Assembly (NCBI GenBank): GCA_018644785.1
Contig: JABGPV010000043.1
Span: 2,931-24,407 of the forward strand
Source of the DNA: Deltaproteobacteria bacterium
GTDB taxonomy: Bacteria; Desulfobacterota; DSM-4660; Desulfatiglandales; Desulfatiglandaceae
Length of the DNA stretch: 21,477 nt
Direction: 5' to 3'
Part shown: piece after piece, positions 5,677-21,477 of the stretch
How positions within the stretch are numbered: position 1 is the first letter of the stretch
How the letters are laid out: the number at the start of each line of letters is the position of its first letter
The notes under the pieces: generated by a model
Database searches by the model: none
What the model saw: the letters and a program-made list of their open reading frames with translations, nothing else
What the model was told of the DNA's origin: nothing
Made by a program: the position numbers and the translations under genes

Positions 5677-7281
5677 TTATTTTCTATACCGTTCCCTGCT
5701 TTTATCCTTTTTCGCCAGTTCCGCCAACCCGCTTTTCCCGAATTTTTTGATTTTTACGCCACCTGAAAGGGTAGGGAAGTTTTTCATGATACTTAACTCA
5801 TTGGGAAGTTTGTTCCGTGCGATTTTTCCTTCCAAAAAGCCCCTGATCTCTCCCAGAGTCACGGTTTGGCCTTCCACCGGGATCACGCAGGCACAGATAT
5901 TTTCGCCCAACACCGGATTGGGGGTGGCCACCATACATACCTGCGCTACATTGGGATGATCGATGATCAGGGATTCCAGCTCGTAGGGGTAAATCTTATA
6001 ACCACCCCGATTTATCAGATCTTTGTTCCTTCCGTAAATCTTGAAGTACCCGTTTTCTTCCCGGGATACCAGATCCCCCATGGACAGCCATTCGTCAACA
6101 ATCTGTTTTTTTGTTTCTTCCGGATTCCGCCAGTATCCTTTGAGGACATGCCAGCCCCTGAGGGTCAATTCCCCGATTTCCCCATCCGGGAGTTCTTCTC
6201 CAGTAGCGGTGTCGACGACACGGGCCTCCGTTCCCTCGATGGGTTTACCGATATATTTCTCCCGGACATGACGCGAAGATGGATAAGGACACATTATCCC
6301 CAGACCGGGACCCACTTCCGATGCACCCCAGAATGAGGCCAGGTACACCCCCATCTCTTCTTCGACTTTTGTGATCAAACCTTCCGGCGCGGGCTGGCCG
6401 GCAATCATGCCCGCCCTAAGGGAAGTAAGGTTATAGTTTTTTCTAATGGTCTGATTCAGTTCGAGAATATAGTGGACCGGCGCGCCCAATTGAATGGAGA
6501 CTTGTTCCTTCTCAATAATTTCAAAGGCGGATTCCGGATCAAACTTTTTCATCAATACCACGGTTGAAAGGAGGAGCAACGGTTGGATGAGGATGGCCCC
6601 GCATCCGTACGAATGGCACATGGGAAGGAAACCGATAAAAATGTCATCTGATTGGGCGTTGATGCCGTAAGAGTACTCCATACCCGCCCTGACAGCCTGA
6701 TAATGGGTGATCATGGCGCCCTTGGGTTTTCCGGTGGTGCCGGAGGTGTAGATCAACATGGCAAGGTCATTTTTGGTATCAATCGAAGGGGATGTATAGG
6801 TCCGCCCGTTACCCTGCTCCACAAGTTGTTTGAACCCGAATACCTTTTCGCCTTTCCCCTCTCCGGTCACTAAAATGAATTCAAGATTGGGGAGACTCTC
6901 TCTAATGCCTGAAACAACTTCGAGATAATCATAACCATCCCACTCCCTGAAAATGAAAACACCACGGGCTTCGGAGTTCTTCAATATGAATTCAGCCTCT
7001 GTTTTCCGGTACAGGGGATTTACCCAGGCCACAACAACTCCCAGCTTTTCAAGCGCATAAAATGCCGTCACAAACTCTATTGAATTGGGCATGTAGATGG
7101 CGATGCGATCGCCTTTTTGAATTCCCAGGTCCGCGAGGCTGGCGGCAAGCGCATTCGACAAGTCATTCATCTCATGATAGGTCTTTCGTTGTTTTTCACA
7201 CACAACCGCAGTTTTGCCCGGAGCGGATTCCGCCCCCTTCTCGATTATCTGCCCTAATGGGAGAGATTCTAAATCAATCAT
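5677..7281 (-). CDS. AMP-forming acyl/aryl-CoA ligase (ANL superfamily)
   Basis: It activates a carboxylic acid with ATP and CoA through an acyl-adenylate. The AMP-binding motif YTSGTTGKPKG is at residues 178-188. GASEVGPG is in the A5 region, SMGDLV and GRNKDLINRGGYKIYP are in the hinge region, and a C-terminal SGGVKIKK replaces the usual SGKI, leaving candidate catalytic lysines. The length (534 residues) is typical of medium-chain and aryl-CoA ligases. The ATG has GAGGAC upstream. It is co-transcribed with the IclR regulator and divergent from a hydroxybenzoyl-CoA-reductase-like operon, so a hydroxybenzoate or related aromatic acid is a reasonable substrate guess. The sequence alone does not fix the substrate. 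Confidence 0.9.
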   Translation of the reverse strand: MIDLESLPLGQIIEKGAESAPGKTAVVCEKQRKTYHEMNDLSNALAASLADLGIQKGDRIAIYMPNSIEFVTAFYALEKLGVVVAWVNPLYRKTEAEFILKNSEARGVFIFREWDGYDYLEVVSGIRESLPNLEFILVTGEGKGEKVFGFKQLVEQGNGRTYTSPSIDTKNDLAMLIYTSGTTGKPKGAMITHYQAVRAGMEYSYGINAQSDDIFIGFLPMCHSYGCGAILIQPLLLLSTVVLMKKFDPESAFEIIEKEQVSIQLGAPVHYILELNQTIRKNYNLTSLRAGMIAGQPAPEGLITKVEEEMGVYLASFWGASEVGPGLGIMCPYPSSRHVREKYIGKPIEGTEARVVDTATGEELPDGEIGELTLRGWHVLKGYWRNPEETKKQIVDEWLSMGDLVSREENGYFKIYGRNKDLINRGGYKIYPYELESLIIDHPNVAQVCMVATPNPVLGENICACVIPVEGQTVTLGEIRGFLEGKIARNKLPNELSIMKNFPTLSGGVKIKKFGKSGLAELAKKDKSRERYRK

Positions 7282-7552: not shown

Positions 7553-8527
7553 GTGAGATTACCCAAATTCCGATATGTGGCACCCGAAAACATCAAGGAG
7601 GTCTCAACGATCCTGCTTGATGAACCCGGCGCGAAAATTCTCGCTGGAGGAACTGACATCCTGCCAAATATGAAGCACAGGGTTGAGCTGCCTTCAGTTT
7701 TGGTCAATATCAAGAAGATCCCTGAACTGAACTCTATTCAGCAGGACAATGGCGACATAAGGATCGGCGCCCTTACACCGCTTAAGAAGGTATATGAATC
7801 TCCAATTATAACAGAAAACTTATCGGCTCTCGCATCTGCCGCTTCTTCCGTAGGCTCATATCACCATCAGACAATGGGCACCATAGGGGGAAACATATGC
7901 CAGCAAAACAGGTGTAAGTACTATAATCAATCCCAATGGTGGCGGAGCAGCAGACCCACCTGTTTTAAAGCCGGCGGAGAGATCTGTCATGTGGTAAACA
8001 AAAAAGAGATCTGTTACTCCTGTTACTGCGGTGATGTGGCGCCGGCTCTTTTGGTGTTGGATGCAAGGATTATTGTACAGAGCAAAGATAATTCGAGGGA
8101 GATACCTTTGGATACGCTTTTCTCAGGAAATGGAAAGGCGCATTTGAATTTAGAAGAGGGAGAGATCCTGACCGAGATTATCATTCCCGGAGAGGCCAGG
8201 GATGGATTCTCCACTTATATAAAAATCGCGAATCGCGAAAGCATCGATTTCCCTATTGTGGGGGCAGCTTTCCGGGGATCCGTGAAGAAAAAAGAATACA
8301 GGGTGGCTTTCACGGCTGTGGATCGAAAACCTGTGAGGGGTAGTCGTGTTGAAGCGTTTCTGAAGGGAAAGAATCTGAGTGAGAAACTCCTGGAGGAGGC
8401 AAATCAGATCGCATCCAAAGAGGCGAGTCCGGCTAAAACGTCAACCTACTCGCCATCCTATAAAAGAAGGATGATGGGACTGCTGCTTCGAAGCGCAATA
8501 CAGGAAGCCACGGGGAGGGAAGAATAA
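7553..8527 (+). CDS. FAD subunit of a 4-hydroxybenzoyl-CoA reductase-type enzyme, with extra [4Fe-4S] loop
   Basis: This is the medium, FAD-binding subunit of a xanthine-oxidase-family molybdenum hydroxylase. FAD motifs AGGTDILPNMK (31-41) and TMGTIGGNIC (108-116) are present. Right after the second motif is the roughly 40-residue insertion characteristic of 4-hydroxybenzoyl-CoA reductase beta subunits (NRCKYYNQS...C...CHVV...C). Cys 121, 137, 145 and 154 match the spacing of the [4Fe-4S] ligands known in the Thauera enzyme, each offset by one residue. That extra cluster is a hallmark of enzymes running in the reductive direction. The start is GTG, with AGGAGG 7 bases upstream. The stop overlaps the next gene by one base. 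Confidence 0.88.
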   Translation: MRLPKFRYVAPENIKEVSTILLDEPGAKILAGGTDILPNMKHRVELPSVLVNIKKIPELNSIQQDNGDIRIGALTPLKKVYESPIITENLSALASAASSVGSYHHQTMGTIGGNICQQNRCKYYNQSQWWRSSRPTCFKAGGEICHVVNKKEICYSCYCGDVAPALLVLDARIIVQSKDNSREIPLDTLFSGNGKAHLNLEEGEILTEIIIPGEARDGFSTYIKIANRESIDFPIVGAAFRGSVKKKEYRVAFTAVDRKPVRGSRVEAFLKGKNLSEKLLEEANQIASKEASPAKTSTYSPSYKRRMMGLLLRSAIQEATGREE

Positions 8528-9003
8528 TGAAACAGGGTATTGAACTGAGGATTAATGGCGACAATTATGAGGTGCTTGTTTCCCCGAATAACACACTCCT
8601 TGAGGTTTTGAGAGACAACCTGGGGCTAATGGGTACGAAGCGCGGATGCGATCTGGGTGCTTGCGGCGCCTGCACGGTGCTGATAAACGGAGAGACCGCT
8701 CTGTCGTGCATAATGCTTGCCATGGATGCGGTCGGCAAGGAGATCGAAACCATAGAGGGCGTCGAAGAGGCAGGTCTTCTCCATCCCCTGCAAACGGCAT
8801 TTGTAGAAAAAGGCGGGCTCCAGTGCGGATTCTGTACGCCTGGGATGATTCTGACCGCCAAGACCATATTGGATGAAGAGGACCATCCCACAGAGGACAC
8901 CATAAAGAAAAAGATGGCCGGCAATCTCTGCCGTTGCACCGGTTATAAGAAGATCGTTGAGGCGGTGATGAGCGTAAGTGAACAGGCCGGGGAGGGCAGA
9001 TAA
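8527..9003 (+). CDS. [2Fe-2S] subunit of the molybdenum hydroxylase
   Basis: This is the small iron-sulfur subunit (158 residues). The plant-type ferredoxin cluster is bound by Cys 41, 46, 49 and 61 (GCDLGACGACTV). The second, helical-domain cluster is bound by Cys 100, 103, 135 and 137 (QCGFCTPGMIL and NLCRCTGY). It carries electrons between the Mo site and the FAD subunit. Its ATG overlaps the stop of the FAD subunit (TAATG) and it ends one base before the large-subunit start, so the three form one operon. Confidence 0.95.
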   Translation: MKQGIELRINGDNYEVLVSPNNTLLEVLRDNLGLMGTKRGCDLGACGACTVLINGETALSCIMLAMDAVGKEIETIEGVEEAGLLHPLQTAFVEKGGLQCGFCTPGMILTAKTILDEEDHPTEDTIKKKMAGNLCRCTGYKKIVEAVMSVSEQAGEGR

Positions 9004-9004
9004 A

Positions 9005-11287
9005 ATGGAAAATGACTTGAACGTTGTGGGCCAAAGATTGCCCATGCATGATGCGGCGGCAAAGGCAAAAGGGACGGCACAGTTTACAGATGACATTACT
9101 TTTCCCGGAATGCTCCATGGCAGGATACTCAGAAGCCCTTTCGCCCATGCGAAGATCCTCCGCATCGATACGAAAAAAGCCGAGAAACTGCCCGGCGTAA
9201 AAGGTGTGGTAACGGGTCGGGATATCCCGGACCGTCTTTATGGGATCGTCCCCAAGGCGAGAGATGAGTATGCCCTCGCCAAAGACAAAGTCCGCTACAT
9301 TGGCGATGACGTGGCCGCGGTTTGTGCCATTGACCCCGAGATCGCCGAAGAGGCCATCGAACTTATTAAAGTGGACTATGAAGAACTGCCTGCCGTATTC
9401 GATCCCTTTGAGGCCAAAAAAGAGGGCGCGCCAGTCATTCACGAAGGCATAAATAATAATACATCCTTTGCCATCAAAAAAGAATTCGGTGATGTCAAAA
9501 AGGCGTTTGCCGAATCCGATGCTATTTTTGAAGACACCTTTTTCTCCCAGCCCGTCAATCACGCCCCCATGGAACCCCACGCCGCCATTGCTCAGTATGA
9601 TCCTTTGAAGGGAGAAGTTACCCTCTGGTCTTCAACCCAGATTCCTTTTTTCCTTCGAAGAAACCTGTCCAATACGCTTCAAATTCCGGAAAGCAAGGTG
9701 CGGGTCATCAAACCCAAGGTCGGCGGCGGTTTCGGCCAGAAGATCGATATGTTTGCCAAGGATTTCTGTGCGGCCTGGTTTGCCATGCATCTGGGCAAAC
9801 CCGTAAAATTCACATATGATCGCGAAGAAGTTTTTATCTCCACCCGTCAAAGGCACCCCATGTATATTACCGTTAAGACCGGGATGAAAAAGGACGGAAC
9901 CATCCTTGCGCAAAAATTTAAGTCGTATGCCGATGGAGGGGCTTACAACAGTACGGCGCCTACGATGATGGCCCTGTCATGTTTTTTTCTGATGATCCCA
10001 TACAAGGTTCCGAATCTGTTTTATGAGGGGTACCATGTTTATACGAACAAACCCGTGGGAGGCGCCATGCGTGGACACGGTATCCCCCAGGCCCGTTTCG
10101 CCGTTGAACGCCAATTGGATCTGATGGCCGCGCGACTCGGGCTGGATCCAACCGAGATCCGCTTAAAAAACAGCATCCATGCCGGGGAGCCCCATTCGGC
10201 CGGTTTTATCATCAATACCTGCGGATTTTACGACTCCGTGAAAAAAGCCGCCGACGCCATAGGATGGAAGGAAAAAAGAGGAAAACTCCCCTTCGGCAGA
10301 GGGGTGGGTCTCGCGGGCGCATCTTTTCCAAGCGGGGTCAGTAATATGAGCCATATCAGCTCCGGCTCGGTGGTGCAGTTGGGACGGGACGGTGCCGTGA
10401 ATGTGCTGTCAGGTGCGGCAGACATCGGACAGGGCGCTGAAACCGTGATCAGCCAGATCGTCGCGGAAGAATTGGGCGTACTTCTCGAAGATGTCAGGAT
10501 AACAGCAGCCGACACGGGCCTTACCCCCCTTGATCCCGGCACTTTCGGAAGCGGGGTGACGGTCAGGGCTGGAAACGCAGCGAGATTGGCCGCTTTAGAA
10601 GCAAAAGAGAAACTGTTCGAATTTGTTGCCGGAAAGCTTGAAGCCAACCCTGAAGACCTGGTGGCGAGGAACAGGGAGATATTCGTCAAGGGCTCTCCCG
10701 GAACGAAGATCAGCATGAAAGATGCCATAAAGGGATACCAGTACGCTGATCTTCCCATGCCCATCGTGGGCAGGGGGTCATGGATGGCGCCGGCTGATGA
10801 ACCGACTACCTTGTTCAAACAGGATGGTAATTTCGCACCCAATTATTCTTTTATGACCCAGGCGGCTGAAGTCGAAGTGGATCTCATTACCGGTCAGGTA
10901 AAACTCTTGCGGATGGTCACGGCCCATGACTGCGGCAGGCCCATTAACCCCATGCTGGTTGAAGGCCAATTAGAAGGCTCCGTTGTGGGTGGTATGGGAC
11001 AGGCCCTGTATGAAGATGTGATTGTTGAAAAGGGGCAGGTGATGAACCCTTCATTTCTGGATTACGGTTTCCCCACTTTTCTTGAGATGCCGGAAATTGA
11101 GGCCATTGAAGTCGAAACGGATGATCCCATCGGGCCGTTCGGGGCCAAAGAGGCGGGGGAAGGGACGCAGTTGTCTCCGGCGCCTGCCATCGTCAATGCC
11201 ATCTATGATGCCATCGGTGTGGATTTTATGGAACTTCCCATAACCCCGGAGAAAATCCTCAAGGCCTTAGACAAAAAAGGAAAATAA
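9005..11287 (+). CDS. Molybdopterin-binding catalytic subunit, 4-hydroxybenzoyl-CoA reductase-like
   Basis: This is the large subunit (760 residues), holding the molybdopterin cytosine dinucleotide cofactor. It has the N-terminal a/b hammerhead (KAKGTAQFTDDI...GRILRSPFAHA). GGGFGQK (240-246), RGHGIPQARFA, GAADIGQGAETV and the C-terminal GPFGAKEAGEG (near 715, with the likely catalytic Glu) are the cofactor and active-site motifs. I choose the ATG at 9005, preceded by GGGGAGGG, over an in-frame GTG at 8978 inside the previous gene. Gene order is FAD-[2Fe-2S]-Mo. No Mo-cofactor sulfurtransferase or insertion chaperone gene is adjacent. A dearomatising reductase that removes a phenolic hydroxyl is the best guess, based on the FAD subunit insertion. 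Confidence 0.92.
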   Translation: MENDLNVVGQRLPMHDAAAKAKGTAQFTDDITFPGMLHGRILRSPFAHAKILRIDTKKAEKLPGVKGVVTGRDIPDRLYGIVPKARDEYALAKDKVRYIGDDVAAVCAIDPEIAEEAIELIKVDYEELPAVFDPFEAKKEGAPVIHEGINNNTSFAIKKEFGDVKKAFAESDAIFEDTFFSQPVNHAPMEPHAAIAQYDPLKGEVTLWSSTQIPFFLRRNLSNTLQIPESKVRVIKPKVGGGFGQKIDMFAKDFCAAWFAMHLGKPVKFTYDREEVFISTRQRHPMYITVKTGMKKDGTILAQKFKSYADGGAYNSTAPTMMALSCFFLMIPYKVPNLFYEGYHVYTNKPVGGAMRGHGIPQARFAVERQLDLMAARLGLDPTEIRLKNSIHAGEPHSAGFIINTCGFYDSVKKAADAIGWKEKRGKLPFGRGVGLAGASFPSGVSNMSHISSGSVVQLGRDGAVNVLSGAADIGQGAETVISQIVAEELGVLLEDVRITAADTGLTPLDPGTFGSGVTVRAGNAARLAALEAKEKLFEFVAGKLEANPEDLVARNREIFVKGSPGTKISMKDAIKGYQYADLPMPIVGRGSWMAPADEPTTLFKQDGNFAPNYSFMTQAAEVEVDLITGQVKLLRMVTAHDCGRPINPMLVEGQLEGSVVGGMGQALYEDVIVEKGQVMNPSFLDYGFPTFLEMPEIEAIEVETDDPIGPFGAKEAGEGTQLSPAPAIVNAIYDAIGVDFMELPITPEKILKALDKKGK

Positions 11288-16002: not shown

Positions 16003-17070
16003 ATGAAGAAAATATCAATCGGTGTTGCAATAGCTTTGATGATCATGTTTGTGGGTTCAGGTTCTGTTCTGGCACGTAACGGCGGCGGCTACGGTGGCGG
16101 CAAAGGCGGTGGACACGGTGGAGGAAAAGGCGGCGGCGGTTATGGTGGCTTTGAAACCATATTGTTTTCGGCTTTTCCTTCTGAAGCCTTTCCTTCAGAA
16201 GATACCATAATGAACCCCAATGACGAAATGTGGTCCCAGATTGAAGGGATATCTGTTCCTGTTATGCCCATGATGGCCCCAGAACTATGGGGACAAAGCA
16301 ATACAGTGGAACTGAAATCCCTCCACAATGATACGGATGTTTACATCTATGCGAGATGGGCGGATTTGAACCAGAGCGTTTTCAAAAGCATGTGGGTCAA
16401 AACCTCTGACGGGTGGACAAACTCCGGCGCTAACGAAGACCGCATGGGCTTCGCATGGGACATAGATGGTTCCTTGTCCCGGTCCAACGGGTTCGGACCA
16501 AGAGGCGGCGTGGCGGTCGGGTGCGCCACCCTTTGCCATGTTGACCCTGATGATCCGAACAAACTGACGATGAGTACCGCTTATACCGGGGGCGTGGCCG
16601 ATCTTTGGCAATGGAAAGCAGCGCGGACAAATCCTGTTGGTTACTCGGATGATCAGTACTTTGATAATGTAAATCATAAGGGTGATGAAGGCGTGAGCAC
16701 CTACAGAGAAAACAAATCTGAGGACGGATCGAAACCCGGCTATATGTTTGCTTTTGAGGGCGGAGTGGGGACATCGCCATACCTTTTTGAAGATGAAGCG
16801 ACACCCTTTTCTGACAACCTGTTCGATGGTGATGCTCTTCCAGGTTATGTTCTGCGAACACCCTCCGGAGACCGGGCAAATGTGGAAGCGGTCGGTGTGT
16901 GGGTGGACGGATACTGGACTGTGGTATTTAAGAGAAGCCTCAGGACAGAATCCGAAAATGATGTTCAGTTCACCGCGAATGCAAATTATCCATTTGGCAT
17001 TTCAATCTTCGATAATGCCGGCAATGAAAAACATCTGAAAAGCCACCCGTTGTACCTATGGCTTGAATAG
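16003..17070 (+). CDS. Secreted Gly-rich protein with ethylbenzene-dehydrogenase-type haem-binding domain
   Basis: This 355-residue exported protein has a Sec signal peptide (residues 1-24, cleavage after VLA). A Gly/Lys/His-rich linker follows (26-49), then an EB_dh-like domain as in the haem b gamma subunit of ethylbenzene and DMSO-reductase-family dehydrogenases (SLHNDTDVYIYARWAD, EDRMGFAWDID, DGYWTVVFKRSL). Met148 and Lys310 lie near positions that could supply haem ligands. It also carries CATLCH (174-179), an unusual CX3CH that could attach a c-type haem. No catalytic Mo subunit is nearby, so it may serve as a stand-alone periplasmic electron carrier. The gene follows the sigma-54-driven ZraP-like gene. 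Confidence 0.8.
   Translation: MKKISIGVAIALMIMFVGSGSVLARNGGGYGGGKGGGHGGGKGGGGYGGFETILFSAFPSEAFPSEDTIMNPNDEMWSQIEGISVPVMPMMAPELWGQSNTVELKSLHNDTDVYIYARWADLNQSVFKSMWVKTSDGWTNSGANEDRMGFAWDIDGSLSRSNGFGPRGGVAVGCATLCHVDPDDPNKLTMSTAYTGGVADLWQWKAARTNPVGYSDDQYFDNVNHKGDEGVSTYRENKSEDGSKPGYMFAFEGGVGTSPYLFEDEATPFSDNLFDGDALPGYVLRTPSGDRANVEAVGVWVDGYWTVVFKRSLRTESENDVQFTANANYPFGISIFDNAGNEKHLKSHPLYLWLE
16079..16150 (+). repeat. Gly-codon-rich imperfect repeat inside the haem-domain gene
   Basis: Repeated GGYGGCGGN units encode GGGYGGGKGGGHGGGKGGGG. It is a low-complexity linker prone to length variation. Confidence 0.7.
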
Positions 17071-17337: not shown

Positions 17338-18726
17338 TTATTCCATCAAAACCATGGCGAAAAAATGCCATGTGCCGTATGTTTCTTTGCGGGTATCAAT
17401 GTGGAAACCATTTCTGCGGGCTGTTTTGAACACATCAATGCCACAGGCTTCCATCATCGGTCTGAGCTTTGTCTTTTTTTCTTCCGTTTCCGGAGACTCG
17501 CACGGAGCCTCCTTTTTGCCCGTGGGTCATGTACTCCCCGGACTCGCGGACCCCACGGCAGATCCGCCTCCCGCTGAAAGCGCCGTCAATGCGAAAGCCT
17601 TATAAAATCCACTGTGATAAGCCTCACCCTCCAGGCGGCAGGCGATTTCGGTCAACAACTGCCCATCTTCTCCACTAATCAGAATCGCTCTCGAATACTC
17701 GCCCATCACCTCCTTAACCTCCCCGATTTCAGGCGTTTTGGGCGGATGATACCCGTCTTTACCATACATGGGACATCCGTAAACACATTTCCACTTCACC
17801 CATTTTTCCACCACGATAGAGTCCGTATCGATAACCTTGGCCTTTTTTGCCCCCATTTCAAGGGCACGTGCTGCCATATCCTCGATAGTCACGATTTGCG
17901 GTGTTAACAGGTTGCTGCTTTCGGGCAATGAGGGTACTTCGTTTTTCTGCGGCATTTGCGATTTATGCTCCTCTGGTTCCGGTTTGCGAGCGCGAATCAG
18001 CGCACCCTTGGTTTTGGGAGAACTGTTGAAACCTGTTTCAGCAACCCGTTTAACGTCCACGAAGCCGGTCTTTTTCAATGCTGCCAGAAATTCCATTTCC
18101 GGTACGGCACCGCCCTCTCACTGAAACCAGGTTGCAACACGGTCCTTGAGATCTTTGGACAGGGCCCGGGAAACAAACTGATCCGCCATGAACAATCTTC
18201 CTCCCGGTTTTAAAAGCCCGTACATGGACTGGAGGGCAGTCTCCTTTTCAGGGATGAGGTTGAAAACACCGTTGGAAATAACCACGTCAAACCGTTCTTC
18301 CATGCCAGACAGACGCTACACATCCCCAACCTGAAAATCGACCTTTTCGGCTTTCACCATCTCTTTATTGGCGTTGGCTTTTCGAATCATCTCGGTGGTC
18401 AGATCCAGCCCCAAGACCCTGCCGGAGGCACCCACCAGTTTTCCAGCCAAGAGGGCATCCACACCCGCGCCGCAACCGATATCAAGCACCCGTGCTCCCG
18501 AAGGGATTTCACCTAGTGAAAATGGATTGCCAACACCACAAAAGGAATCCGCCACCGCATCCGGCAGATCCCCGGTGAGGTGATTGTCATACTGCAACCC
18601 CTTGAGTCCATCCCGTCCTGTGGGATATTTAAAATGGCCCTCGGGTGTTGCAGCGACCTTTTTGTATTTATCCCGGATTCCAGCATCTATCTGTTCCAGA
18701 TCTCGAGTACTCAACTGGGAAACCAT
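17338..18726 (-). CDS. ArsM-like methyltransferase-DUF2284 fusion, predicted selenoprotein (also carries an in-frame UAG; possibly decaying)
   Basis: One frame runs about 463 codons, interrupted by UAG (18318-18316, codon 137), UGA (18120-18118, codon 203) and UGA (17529-17527, codon 400), and ends at TAA 17340-17338. Residues 1-240 form a SAM methyltransferase of the arsenite-methyltransferase type, with VLDIGCGAGVDALLAG near 80 and VVISNGVFNL and LLKPGGRLFMADQ later. The first UGA sits in WFQ-U-EGGAVP, where ArsM proteins have the As(III)-binding Cys of WxxCxxGA. An 8-bp hairpin with a GG-containing loop follows it. Cys63 is near the other ArsM Cys. The C-terminal part (about 270-460) is DUF2284 (KCVYGCPMYG..., RPMMEACGIDVFKTAR). 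UAG replaces a residue that is usually Glu (GAG to TAG). The DUF2284 Cys cluster near codon 390 looks scrambled. Start: ATG with AAGGCGG upstream. Confidence 0.6.
18084..18102 (-). promoter_or_regulatory. SECIS-like hairpin after the methyltransferase UGA
   Basis: Counting from the first base after the UGA, bases 16-23 (CCGGAAAU) pair with 27-34 (AUUUCUGG) with one G-U wobble, and GGA is in the loop. The GG is at +24/+25, inside the 16-37 base window known for bacterial SECIS loops. Confidence 0.6.
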
Positions 18727-18767
18727 CACATCCGCCTTTTCCTTTTTTAGAGTTCCTGACACAACTA

Positions 18768-19118
18768 TTAGAAATTGAAAACTTTTCCATCGGCAATCAG
18801 ATCAATGAGATGGGGTGCACCATCCAGCATCATATTGGGGAAAAACCTGGCCTCGTCAACCTGACGGGCAATTGCGCACGGCGGTCAGACCCCAATGGGA
18901 ATCTCGTTTTCGAGTAAGTAAGGAAAATAGTCGCCGGGACAGTCTCCGGTTAGCGTCTTTTCCGTGAAGTCCCGAGTGTTGTCGGCCCACAATGTGCCAT
19001 CTTCTATGAAAAAGATATGGACATTGTGTCCTTTTTCATGGGTAACTTTGGCAAATTGAAAACATCTTGCCGCCAAATTTACATCTGTCTTGCTGAGTGT
19101 ATAAACAAAATTTGCCAT
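18768..19118 (-). CDS. DsrE-family selenoprotein with UPPC motif
   Basis: This is predicted to be a 116-residue protein when UGA 18887-18885 is read as Sec78. The first 77 residues have the DsrE/DsrEFH-like fold (MANFVYTLSKTDVNLAARCF, KVTHEKGHNVHIFFIEDG). After the UGA the same frame continues in conserved style (PPCAIARQVD, then NMMLDGAPHLIDLIADGKV) to TAA 18770-18768. The UGA falls where DsrE relatives have a reactive Cys before PCA, giving a U-P-P-C redox motif. Read as a stop it would remove a third of the domain. A hairpin with loop AGGUU follows. GGAGGGAAAT precedes the ATG. The likely role is sulfur or selenium transfer or redox chemistry. DsrE-like selenoproteins have been reported in deltaproteobacteria. 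Confidence 0.82.
18850..18869 (-). promoter_or_regulatory. SECIS-like hairpin after the DsrE UGA
   Basis: GCCCGUC pairs with GACG(A)GGC around the loop AGGUU, giving 7 bp with one bulged A. The loop resembles AGGUCU of E. coli fdhF. The GG is at +24/+25 from the UGA. Confidence 0.7.
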
Positions 19119-19162
19119 ATTTCCCTCCGTTTTTAACCCGCTGGTCTACAAACACCCGCCGG

Positions 19163-19399
19163 TCATTTTTTTATGGACATACTACGATAGCGTGTCTTTT
19201 TTTTCAGTGATTCCATTAGCTCTTTTTCGTCTAGTTTGCCTGCATCGTATTTTACTTTTGCCTCACGTCTCAAAGCCGTGACTTCGTAGCTCATAACTCC
19301 TGCGATCCCATCCAGGGCCGCCGCGACAAGCGCCTCTCATGACGGTCAGTTCAAATTTGGAATGTCCAGTAAAACTTCTTTTTCTTCAATTCCGCTCAT
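19163..19399 (-). CDS. HMA-like heavy-metal-binding protein with UxxU motif (predicted double-Sec selenoprotein)
   Basis: An ATG with a perfect AAAGGAGG five bases upstream opens a frame with two UGA codons (19348-19346 and 19339-19337). Read as Sec18 and Sec21, the 78-residue product starts MSGIEEKEVLLDIPNLN, then U-P-S-U, then EALVAAALDGIAGVMSYEV and later AKVKYDAGKLDEKELMESLK. This is the heavy-metal-associated (CopZ/MerP-like) pattern: CxxC, V..AL..I.GV, V.YD, EL. Both metal-binding Cys are replaced by UGA. A hairpin with loop UGGAU follows at +24/+25 from the second UGA. The frame could also read through the terminal TGA (19165-19163) to TAA at 19135-19133. It is probably a metal(loid) chaperone. 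Conventional ORF finding would miss the gene. Confidence 0.78.
19304..19319 (-). promoter_or_regulatory. SECIS-like hairpin after the HMA double UGA
   Basis: GGCCC pairs with GGG(A)UC around the loop UGGAU, with one bulged A as in the DsrE hairpin. The GG is at +24/+25 from the second UGA and +33/+34 from the first. The stem is short (5 bp). Confidence 0.5.
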
Positions 19400-19506
19400 A
19401 GCAACCTCCTTTGTTGTGACATGTTATCTTTTCGTCCCATATTTTCTCTCTTCTTCCCGGTTGTTGGCAGCCCTTTCAACCCCCCTTCATTATTTCACAA
19501 TCCACT

Positions 19507-19809
19507 TCAGTTGTTCGAATGACTTGCTTTTCGCACCGCTTCTGTTAGGGACTCCATATCCGGAATGTTGTCAAAAGCGATGTATTCGTTAATCACAATT
19601 GAAGGCACCGCGGGCATACGTCCGCAAATGGAGCCGAGTTCGGCATGACGCGTGACCCCTTCGCGAGACCCGACATCGACCACCTCCCACGCCAGAATCC
19701 CTGGCTCAAATTCCGGGGCAATTTCCTCCAGAATGGCTGTCGCAAGATCGCACATCATACACCCCTTCTTTTTCGCAATAATCTCTACCACAACTCTTTG
19801 ATCACCCAT
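19507..19809 (-). CDS. Small thioredoxin-fold protein with CMMC motif
   Basis: This 100-residue protein begins MGDQRVVVEIIAKKKGCMMC, with a CxxC motif at 17-20 following the first beta strand as in thioredoxin/glutaredoxin-like small redox proteins. It also has a cis-Pro-type segment (MPAVPSIVINEYI). I use the ATG at 19809 (GAGAGGA about 9 bases upstream) over an open extension to 19860. In this cluster it is the one redox protein that keeps plain cysteines. It could reduce selenenyl-sulfide bonds of its neighbours, which is inference from context. Confidence 0.82.
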   Translation of the reverse strand: MGDQRVVVEIIAKKKGCMMCDLATAILEEIAPEFEPGILAWEVVDVGSREGVTRHAELGSICGRMPAVPSIVINEYIAFDNIPDMESLTEAVRKASHSNN

Positions 19810-19909
19810 CTTCAAGAATCCTCTCCCTATTGGAAAATCAGCGAATTGATGACACAGCAATCTGCTTTTGAAAACGCGGCTCTAATTGAATCTTGGGGTT
19901 TAAAGGCCC

Positions 19910-20389
19910 TCATTTACCAGATACCCGAACATCAATGCTTCCTTCACGTGATAATTTGTTCAGGATAAAGACAGCACTTTCTCGTTCAAGCCTGAAATAT
20001 TTTGCAACCGCTTCCGGCTCGATCCTCTCTTTTCCATTTAAAAAAATCAGGACCTCCTTTTCTATCTCTTTCAACCACTCATTGAACAATCCCCTCAGCT
20101 CCGTCGTAGAATAAGTGGCTATTTCGTATGAGTAGCTGATTGCAGAGAGAACCTCTTTGCTCATTTCCACCGGACTCACACCTGAGTCCGCGCATTCCTT
20201 TATTCAATGCCCCACCATGTCAATCAATTCACGGCTCTTCTCATGGTTTGCGAGTACTGCTCGAAGAATATCTTTCTTTTCCTTTTCACTTAAACCGATC
20301 AATAGAGAGGTAACCAGGCTCTGAAGGACCTCCTTTTTCACGTCAGGGCTCAAACCGACCAACGTTTCGTCTATGCTGTTTTTGCTCAT
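19910..20389 (-). CDS. Predicted selenoprotein of unknown function, UxxxC motif
   Basis: Two short ORFs in the same frame (20389-20204 and 20179-19910) join into one 159-residue protein if UGA 20206-20204 is read as Sec62. The junction reads IDMVGH-U-IKECADSG, so Sec and Cys66 form a UxxxC. The N-terminal half is acidic and helical. The C-terminal half (about 125-155, PEAVAKYFRLERESAVFILNKL) resembles a winged-helix segment. A perfect 6-bp hairpin with loop AGGUGU lies 15-32 bases after the UGA. AGAGGA precedes the ATG at 20389. The second half has no good start of its own. I do not recognise the family. It is the first gene after arsR. Confidence 0.8.
20172..20189 (-). promoter_or_regulatory. 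SECIS element after the UGA of the unknown selenoprotein
   Basis: GGACUC-AGGUGU-GAGUCC is a perfect 6-bp stem. Its 6-base loop differs from E. coli fdhF AGGUCU by one base. The loop GG is at +22/+23 from the UGA. This is the clearest bacterial SECIS candidate in the window. Confidence 0.82.
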
Positions 20390-20451
20390 CAGATTCCTCT
20401 TTTAATTTGTTTTATCTTCCACTATTAGAAATTCTCACGTGCTTCTCCATT

Positions 20452-20745
20452 TCATGACTTCAGGGAATTGTTCACTTGGGACAAATCGCTCAAGACATCA
20501 ATCAGGCCCGGAGAAGAAAGACGGTAGTAAATAAATGGGCCGTTTCTTTCTGTCTTGACAACTTCGGAATTCCGCAGGGTTCTCAGGTGAAAAGAGACAA
20601 GGGTCTGTGGCAGATCCGTGGCATGGATAATCTCGGTAACGGAAAGGGAATCTTTCCCGATCGCCATAACGATTCGAAGGCGGTTCAACTCGGCAAGCGA
20701 TTTTAAAATTTTGACAAGGTTTTCCATCGGTATGATTAACTGCAT
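20452..20745 (-). CDS. ArsR/SmtB-family repressor
   Basis: This is a 97-residue winged-helix regulator: LKSLAELNRLRIVMAI (15-30), recognition helix region SLSVTEIIHATDLPQTLVSFHLRTLRNSEVV (33-63) and the wing TERNGPFIYYRLS. No ELCVC arsenic motif is present, so the inducer is unclear. An ATG at residue 7 is an alternative start; neither has a strong ribosome-binding site. It heads the selenoprotein cluster with 62 bases to the next gene, and an inverted repeat over its own promoter suggests autoregulation. Confidence 0.9.
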   Translation of the reverse strand: MQLIIPMENLVKILKSLAELNRLRIVMAIGKDSLSVTEIIHATDLPQTLVSFHLRTLRNSEVVKTERNGPFIYYRLSSPGLIDVLSDLSQVNNSLKS

Positions 20746-20757
20746 GAGCTTTTATTT

Positions 20758-20777
20758 ATATGAGCGATTGCTTATAT
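20758..20777. promoter_or_regulatory. ArsR operator candidate
   Basis: ATATGAGC-GATT-GCTTATAT is an inverted repeat with one mismatch. It overlaps the -10 box and start site of the arsR promoter, the usual position and size for an ArsR/SmtB operator. Confidence 0.6.
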
Positions 20778-20805
20778 GCTAACGGAACCAAACCATATTT
20801 GTCAA
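20776..20805 (-). promoter_or_regulatory. Promoter of the arsR-selenoprotein cluster
   Basis: TTGACA (20805-20800) and TAGCAT (20781-20776) are 18 bases apart on the minus strand, about 30 bases upstream of the arsR start. Confidence 0.5.
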
Positions 20806-21031: not shown

Positions 21032-21477
21032 ATGCTCACGGTGGATCAATACAGCTACATACGGACAGCACATCGGGTTTATGGCAAAACCATAAAACAG
21101 ATTGCGCGGGAGACGGGACATTCCAAAAATACAGTTAAGAAGGCGCTTCGGGGAGAATACAGCGGTTATAAACCAAGGATAGGACAACCCTATCCTGTTC
21201 TGGGTCCTCATGTTAAAACCATCGACCAATGGTTGAACGATGATAAAGAGCGTCCAAAAAAGCAGCGGCACACGGCTGTGCGGGTTTTTAACCGTCTGAA
21301 ACAGGAGTATGATTTTCAAGGATCTGAGACAACCGTCCGGCGATATGTTCGCGAGGCAAAATTGAGATTGGGTGTTAGTGGTCGTGAGGTATTTATACCA
21401 TCAGATCCACAGGCCGGTGTTGAAGCTGAGGTAGACTGGGGCGTATGCATTGCCATATTGGGAGGTATTGAAACACG
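21032..21477 (+). CDS. istA: IS21-family transposase IstA, N-terminal part (cut by window edge)
   Basis: An ATG with AAAGGAGA just upstream opens a frame that runs off the window (148 residues seen). A helix-turn-helix (KTIKQIARETGHSKNTVKKAL, about 19-39) is followed by ETTVRRYVREAK and by EAEVDWG near the end, where the Asp is the first residue of the DDE catalytic triad. The partner istB would lie beyond the window. Confidence 0.9.
   Translation, partial: MLTVDQYSYIRTAHRVYGKTIKQIARETGHSKNTVKKALRGEYSGYKPRIGQPYPVLGPHVKTIDQWLNDDKERPKKQRHTAVRVFNRLKQEYDFQGSETTVRRYVREAKLRLGVSGREVFIPSDPQAGVEAEVDWGVCIAILGGIET

Follow-up and report, generated by a model that had tools for sequence, protein, structure and literature searches.

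An ArsR-family regulator gene and a cluster of predicted selenoprotein genes in a member of the Desulfatiglandaceae

Gene content and related clusters

The DNA described here, referred to as the window, is a stretch of 21,477 nucleotides from a Deltaproteobacteria bacterium of the family Desulfatiglandaceae (assembly GCA_018644785.1, contig JABGPV010000043.1). On the minus strand, a gene for a regulator of the ArsR/SmtB family is followed on the same strand by five genes, which encode, in order, a TsoA-like protein, a thioredoxin-like protein, an HMA-domain protein, a DsrE-family protein and an arsenite methyltransferase joined to a DUF2284 domain (ArsM-DUF2284). Four of the five frames contain UGA, i.e., one codon each in the TsoA-like and DsrE genes and two each in the HMA and ArsM-DUF2284 genes, and these six codons are predicted to be read as selenocysteine (Sec, denoted U in motifs). 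An earlier sequence-only reading of this DNA had described five genes behind arsR on one strand, four of them with an in-frame UGA beyond which the frame goes on with family-like sequence. The frames and family matches bear out this description of four selenoprotein genes; the second UGA of the methyltransferase gene and an in-frame UAG in the same gene had been missed. The computed part of the present analysis comprises the reading frames with their six UGAs, the hairpins and the extent to which these are conserved, the occurrence of UGA or Cys in relatives, and the Sec machinery of the nearest relative. Features and coordinates are listed in Table 1.

Table 1. Features of the cluster in the window (first and last position, strand) and of corresponding loci in relatives; scores are in bits.
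Feature	Position	Strand	Remarks
-35-like element TTGACA before arsR	20800..20805	-	consensus match only
Imperfect palindrome ATATAAGC-AATC-GCTCATAT	20758..20777		7 of 8 arm positions; likely ArsR-family operator
ArsR/SmtB-family regulator	20452..20745	-	NF033788 69.5 (cut-off 55, reached); TsoR model NF045707 82.4 (cut-off 115, below)
TsoA-like predicted selenoprotein	19910..20389	-	Sec62 in HUIKEC; NF045695 82 (cut-off 170, below)
UGA, predicted Sec62, TsoA-like	20204..20206	-	
SECIS-like hairpin, TsoA-like UGA	20171..20190	-	loop GGUG
Thioredoxin-like protein, HUIPC-type, Cys form	19507..19809	-	GCMMC; NF047660 58.8 (cut-off 105, below)
HMA-domain predicted selenoprotein	19163..19399	-	UPSU replacing CxxC; PF00403 34.1 (cut-off 24.8)
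Two HMA UGAs, predicted Sec18 and Sec21	19337..19348	-	Sec18 19348-19346; Sec21 19339-19337
SECIS-like hairpin, second HMA UGA	19302..19321	-	loop UGGAU
DsrE-family predicted selenoprotein	18768..19118	-	Sec78 in UPPC; PF02635 51.8 (gathering cut-off 22.7, reached)
UGA, predicted Sec78, DsrE	18885..18887	-	
SECIS-like hairpin, DsrE UGA	18850..18869	-	loop GGU
ArsM-DUF2284, predicted double selenoprotein	17338..18726	-	NF041536 740.9 (cut-off 575)
UAG in frame, residue 137 of ArsM	18316..18318	-	nonsense, pyrrolysine or reinitiation site
UGA, predicted Sec203, ArsM-DUF2284	18118..18120	-	WFQUEGG; aligned with Cys of ArsM structures
SECIS hairpin of Sec203	18084..18102	-	loop GGA; covaries in 13 sequences
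UGA, predicted Sec400, ArsM-DUF2284	17527..17529	-	GSTUPTG; in predicted disordered arm
SECIS-like hairpin of Sec400	17492..17512	-	loop CGUGC, not of the GG-loop kind
Expanded Sec-Pro arm, locus L008	6794-8308		
Expanded Sec-Pro arm, locus L009	4402-5949		
Expanded Sec-Pro arm, locus L011	10001-11530		

From the TsoA-like gene to ArsM-DUF2284, successive genes are separated by 100, 107, 44 and 41 bases, and a purine-rich stretch, judged by eye, precedes the start of each of the five. The NF041536 score was obtained with a translation that reads through the UAG and the UGAs.

This kind of selenoprotein is already known, as NCBIfam models exist for ArsM_DUF2284_UU, TsoA, HUIPC and UxxU. The available text of a review from 2026 (PMC13188914) lists TsoA, ArsM/DUF2284, ArsM/AhpD, UxxU metal-binding, HUIPC thioredoxin and DsrE-like UxxC selenoproteins, describes Tso as an operon of three selenoproteins with further adjoining selenoprotein genes, and cites Haft and Tolstoy 2025 for ArsM_DUF2284_UU. 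The sequence-only reading had called the selenoproteins hidden, which is true of the fragmented open reading frames (ORFs) but not of the biology. The ArsM-DUF2284 gene has the two domains of ArsM_DUF2284_UU (NF041536), with one Sec in ArsM (UxxG) and one in an arm of DUF2284, and is unlike that family in its UAG at residue 137. The HMA protein resembles the UxxU metal-binding family (NF041115) and MerP-like HMA proteins in that UxxU replaces CxxC, whereas its NF041115 score is 36.6 bits, below the cut-off of 95. The DsrE gene shows weak NCBIfam matches; it shares PF02635 and UxxC with the DsrE-like selenoproteins in the text of PMC13188914 and differs in its placement in this cluster. As in the Tso operon, a TsoR-like regulator gene adjoins a TsoA-like gene with further selenoprotein genes alongside, but both the TsoR and TsoA scores lie below their cut-offs. 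TsoB and TsoC were not found among the matches listed for the 20 window proteins scanned, a subset of the ORFs. Because the nearest relative carries TsoA and TsoB, both over cut-off, and a TsoR-like gene on another contig, the cluster of the window is best called a Tso-like, ArsM-centred variant. This variant is new to our literature searches, the scope of which excluded the primary paper by Haft and Tolstoy (2025).

That nearest relative among the genomes found, the metagenome-assembled genome of a Deltaproteobacteria bacterium (isolate MASpbin.1), is referred to as G001; labels of this form denote relative genomes, and L001 and so on denote relative loci compared with the window. Outside the operon, the five longest matches between the window and G001 are 77-83% identical, the longest extending over 3.8 kb. 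G001 contains two copies of ArsM-DUF2284, one (L001) beside TsoA-like, thioredoxin and DsrE genes with no HMA match, the other (L002) beside thioredoxin, HMA and DsrE genes. The order DsrE then ArsM is also found in L003, L004 and L005. When G001 and relatives, 197 genomes in all, were scanned with NF041536, the cut-off was exceeded in G001 only. Locus L001 also contains, about 1.6 kb upstream of its TsoA-like match, a second HUIPC-like thioredoxin ORF with a UGA (6951-7235, NQULAC; 46.8 bits, cut-off 105). At L007 in Desulfosarcina widdelii, a MerF-like transport protein gene with UGA in frame (6895-7191, UCFTP; 78.8 bits, cut-off 50) is located upstream of TsoA and ArsM-DUF2284 genes.

Hairpins, conservation and decoding of the UGA codons

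The sequence-only reading had placed a hairpin with GG in the loop after every UGA, at nearly constant distance, and had argued that four such coincidences were hard to attribute to chance. The stated distances are exact, i.e., GG is found at +22/23 behind the TsoA-like UGA and at +24/25 behind the second HMA, the DsrE and the Sec203 UGAs; the hairpin is lacking at the first HMA UGA, nine bases before the second, and at Sec400. With the energy limited to E ≤ -7 and the GG to positions +22 to +26, four of the six UGAs are followed by such a hairpin, compared with 7 of 823 (0.85%) other TGAs of the window. With the first HMA UGA omitted, the count is four of five and the binomial chance about 3e-8, a figure that flatters the case because the GG position was chosen after the claim had been seen. 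A search for bacterial selenocysteine insertion sequence (bSECIS) elements, suggested beforehand, finds hairpins; the published bSECIS rule on its own (taken from the available text of PMC13188914) is weakly selective, being passed by 44 of 273 sampled control TGAs, and by 24 of 274 in a narrower script. The bacterial SECIS pattern, a G in the loop 16-37 nt after the UGA, is present, most weakly at Sec400 with its loop CGUGC. Both scripts behind these control counts missed Sec203 or other hairpins owing to their window-length limits. Hairpin conservation was scored with a script that is open to any length and to weaker folding energies (-4) and has no separate control; a laxer control of the script that gave 44 of 273, restricted to even lengths, was passed by 85 of 273.

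The hairpin of Sec203 was examined for covariation in 13 aligned sequences. Its stem of eight pairs is paired in 103 of 104 cells, and eight cells are changed on both sides compared with a shuffled mean of 2.9; none of 500 shuffles reaches eight. When the stem partner is slid by 1-3 columns, the percentage paired and the covariation score both drop.

The codons themselves are conserved. UGA is found at the Sec203 site in 12 of 13 sequences, at least one UGA is present in the Sec400 arm of each of 15 sequences, and the DsrE UGA is kept in seven of seven. The TsoA-like UGA, always in UxxxC, is likewise kept in all seven loci compared (L019, L022, L023, L024 and the shorter L025-L027), and UPSU of the HMA gene is kept in L034. 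Among the DsrE homologs in databases, 23 of 33 are exactly 77 amino acids long, which is the length before the UGA; of ten inspected, eight stop before the UGA and two are full-length with Cys. The expectation that homologs would carry Cys at the UGA sites thus holds for DsrE (2 of 10), for ArsM structures and for HMA domains, where Cys occurs at the site; the TsoA-like protein has UGA only. Along four parts of the ArsM-DUF2284 frame compared with L001, the ratio of nonsynonymous to synonymous substitution rates (dN/dS) is 0.14-0.31, i.e., selection is purifying.

These data bear on two readings without selenocysteine. Under the standard code the frames are broken, as they would be if the genes had decayed and the UGAs were nonsense mutations, but neither these UGAs nor their hairpins are confined to the window, both being found again in other genomes, and the dN/dS values indicate purifying selection. 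Decay, which the sequence-only reading also thought unlikely, is therefore rejected as very improbable. Still harder to credit is UGA read as tryptophan in a code like translation table 4. W is printed at the Sec site in some database records (P0002, P0003, P0154), but UGA is a normal stop in G001, where it ends 87 of 218 ORFs (at least 150 amino acids, 20 regions), and the sites are followed by hairpins and carry Cys in the DsrE, ArsM and HMA homologs; this reading is rejected as well.

Selenocysteine decoding is encoded in G001, which has SelA, SelB, SelD and a tRNA-Sec with anticodon UCA, i.e., all four of selA, selB, selC and selD; the check suggested beforehand had been aimed at these genes in the window's own assembly. 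All eight genomes searched for SelB and all seven searched for SelD score over cut-off; for SelA and for tRNA-Sec the count is 6 of 7 each, G002 being the exception in both. The hairpins, the covariation at Sec203, the homologs and the machinery of G001 all support the selenocysteine reading. Neither of the results that the sequence-only reading would have taken as refutation, a genome lacking selB/selC or homologs with no Cys or Sec at the UGA positions, was obtained, with selB and selC judged from G001.

The ArsM-DUF2284 protein, its Sec arm and its UAG

In alignments with known ArsM structures (5evj, 8xt7), Sec203 is found at a Cys, which we take to be the arsenic-binding, catalytic cysteine, and the predicted model (mean predicted local distance difference test score, pLDDT, 75.4; predicted template modelling score 0.55) is matched best in its fold by ArsM structures. 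On the basis of this alignment and fold, Sec203 would replace the metalloid-binding thiolate of ArsM. Sec400 is located in an arm inside DUF2284 (residues 383-426) that is predicted to be disordered (pLDDT < 50), and Cys314, Cys318 and Cys428 of DUF2284 are invariant across 14 sequences. This arrangement, a flexible selenol beside a Cys-containing domain, suggests a carrier arm.

In L008, L009 and L011 the arm is expanded to a tandem repeat of three GxxUPxx units, which in L008 contain two UGAs and one Cys codon and in L009 and L011 three UGAs each. Together with Sec203, the proteins of L009 and L011 thus have four predicted Sec, compared with two for the ArsM/DUF2284 family in the table of PMC13188914; in the available text of that review, a small subset of families has two to three, and multiple Sec are also noted in archaeal FrhD/VhuD. 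Across the 15 sequences, 18 of the 20 arm UGA sites are followed by a hairpin with G in the first two loop positions and a loop that begins after 20-23 bases; the exceptions are L001, which has none, and the third site of L011, where the only one is at 35. The script behind these counts had no control of its own, and because the laxer control is passed by 85 of 273 at any spacing from 16 to 37, it is the constant spacing that is the telling feature. In the L008 repeat that codes for Cys, the stem is kept and the loop (GCC) no longer has GG. The expanded Sec-Pro arm offers a natural series in which the number of predicted Sec per bacterial protein rises from two to four.

The UAG at residue 137 requires separate consideration. 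The residue is Gln, Glu or Asp in relatives and is non-catalytic by alignment. The likeliest account is that it arose recently as a nonsense change, or that it is an error of sequencing, in which case the cluster is real and its remaining genes work, while this copy of ArsM-DUF2284 is newly dead; we put this slightly below an even chance. The variability of the residue fits such a change, as does the use of UAG as an ordinary stop in G001 (61 of the 218 ORF ends). On the other hand, the frame beyond the UAG is intact to the C-terminus and includes both UGAs, dN/dS against L001 in three successive parts past the UAG is 0.18, 0.31 and 0.14, and the codons unique to the window over the whole gene are 28 synonymous and 9 nonsynonymous. 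A further point against a dead gene is that G001 has a pyrrolysine (Pyl) system.

The latter system would allow Pyl to be inserted at the UAG, so that one protein would contain Pyl once and Sec twice; we regard this as unlikely, though well short of negligible. On one 8-kb contig of G001 (C19; L068 1699-5882) a cassette encodes PylB (434 bits, cut-off 348.2), tRNA-Pyl (CUA), the PylS large subunit (318.8, cut-off 178.15), PylC (417.5, cut-off 248.3) and PylD (249.7, cut-off 150.05), all four proteins scoring over their NCBIfam cut-offs. The frame of a dimethylamine methyltransferase (L146 991-2418) crosses a UAG (TIGR02368, 669.3 bits, cut-off 369.1); a search of G001 for a trimethylamine methyltransferase with UAG (TIGR02369) yielded none. 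Among frames with a coding score ahead of the stop in 80 regions of G001 (0.95 Mb), a coding score behind it as well is commoner for TAG (25 of 257) than for TAA (21 of 398); for TGA it is 33 of 496. The intact constraint downstream of the UAG also favors pyrrolysine. Against it, 11 of the 25 TAG cases were inspected by eye, and most look like an antisense frame or like a following gene that shares the frame, with no clear second sense UAG outside the methylamine gene among them. Furthermore, pyrrolysine would be expected at a UAG conserved at a functional position, whereas position 137 varies among relatives, and many ORFs of G001 end at a UAG. Of ten genomes searched, PylS is over cut-off in G001 only (TIGR02367 at E ≤ 0.001 matches 13 of 14 control genomes, and only matches over cut-off were counted), and no pyl gene was seen in the window. 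On balance, the UAG is more likely a recent nonsense change than pyrrolysine.

Two frames of the G001 survey are recorded separately: an hsdM-like fragment with UAG in frame and an early UGA (L104 9255-10112), which appears decayed, and a frame with an internal TAG (9359) and coding score on both sides (L131 8714-9541).

If pyrrolysine is nonetheless inserted, it may, at doubtful odds, have drifted to this non-catalytic position because the host Pyl system makes amber codons tolerable, such that the ArsM-DUF2284 of the lineage holds both the 21st and the 22nd amino acid. Like G001, the Deltaproteobacteria described in PMC8318568 encode both rare amino acids in one genome, but in the available text of that study Sec and Pyl are found in different proteins. 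One protein with both would mean that amber codons can drift into sense use and that sense use of UAG is spreading beyond methylamine genes in bacteria.

Translation could also stop at the UAG and restart at an ATG, the fifth codon after it (18303, 12 bases past the UAG), which opens an ORF, so that ArsM would be split. This is improbable: among the 11 relatives with one continuous frame across the site (L001-L011), a stop is never found at this position, L013 resembles a truncated rather than a split ArsM gene, and cutting the Rossmann fold at this position is unlikely to be harmless. In L013 (7927-9234), as judged by eye, the ArsM match ends near residue 137, and beyond it come an ArsR-like frame and, as a unit of its own, a DUF2284 that contains a UGA; the remainder of ArsM was not found behind the break. 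Insertion of Sec at the UAG is unlikely, as homologs have no Cys there and the sole tRNA-Sec of G001 over the gathering score has a UCA anticodon.

Regulation and a possible role in metalloid handling

Upstream of arsR, reading toward the gene, the palindrome starts 22 bases past the -35-like TTGACA. A similar TATGAG/CTCATA palindrome precedes arsR in three of six other loci with enough upstream sequence (L008, L009 and L011) and is absent in L007, L010 and L019. The palindrome of the window was not reported by the repeat search and was found by a laxer script. Given its position near TTGACA and the similar palindromes in the three loci, autoregulation by the ArsR-family protein through the palindrome is likely on sequence grounds.

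Near the cluster, the window contains the start of an IS21-type transposase (21032-21475; 89.9 bits, cut-off 160), and mobility is possible. Other parts of the window encode an ethylbenzene-dehydrogenase-type haem-binding protein with a Gly-rich N-terminus (16003-17070, PF09459) and a three-subunit molybdenum hydroxylase (7553-11287), all subunits of which score below cut-offs, the large and FAD subunits being nearest to 4-hydroxybenzoyl-CoA reductase and the small subunit to the gamma subunit of glyceraldehyde dehydrogenase.

We assign a probability of about 0.7 to the reading that the five genes behind the ArsR-family regulator gene form a cluster in which the UGAs of four genes encode Sec and the products probably act in the binding, transport and methylation of a soft metalloid, for example arsenic. 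Several observations weigh against it. The Sec machinery was seen in a relative, G001, and is presumed for the window's own genome, and of the five specific NCBIfam models only ArsM_DUF2284_UU was reached, while TsoR, TsoA, HUIPC and UxxU remained below cut-off. The regulator is without any cysteine, which speaks against direct thiolate sensing of As(III) and leaves arsenic sensing unsupported. At Sec203, two of five covariation measures are not above the shuffles, namely the number of pairs changed on both sides (2; 372 of 500 shuffles) and of further pair types (5; 494 of 500), and in L001 the Sec203 site codes for Gly and the Sec400 UGA is not followed by a hairpin. Conservation of the HMA site rests on L034, no other HMA relative having been found in the loci, and a Cys form of the TsoA-like protein was not seen in the 8 of 20 homologs inspected, one having W and seven starting past the site. 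Finally, the UAG precedes both Sec codons of ArsM and would halt translation unless read through.

The role in metal(loid) handling is what we infer from the families concerned. The genes would be transcribed together, under repression by the ArsR-family protein bound to the palindrome upstream of arsR. The HMA protein, through UPSU, may act as a selenol metallochaperone, and the DsrE protein (UPPC) and the thioredoxin-like protein could be partners in redox reactions or sulfur transfer. In ArsM, the metalloid would be held by Sec203 and a cysteine during methylation, and the flexible Sec400 arm may hand it to or from the Cys-containing DUF2284 domain.

The cluster brings together, behind one regulator gene, four predicted selenoproteins of different folds, with Sec predicted where a chaperone-like domain and an arsenic methyltransferase have their metal- or substrate-binding Cys. 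What a selenol adds to the handling of metalloids would thereby become testable in one operon.

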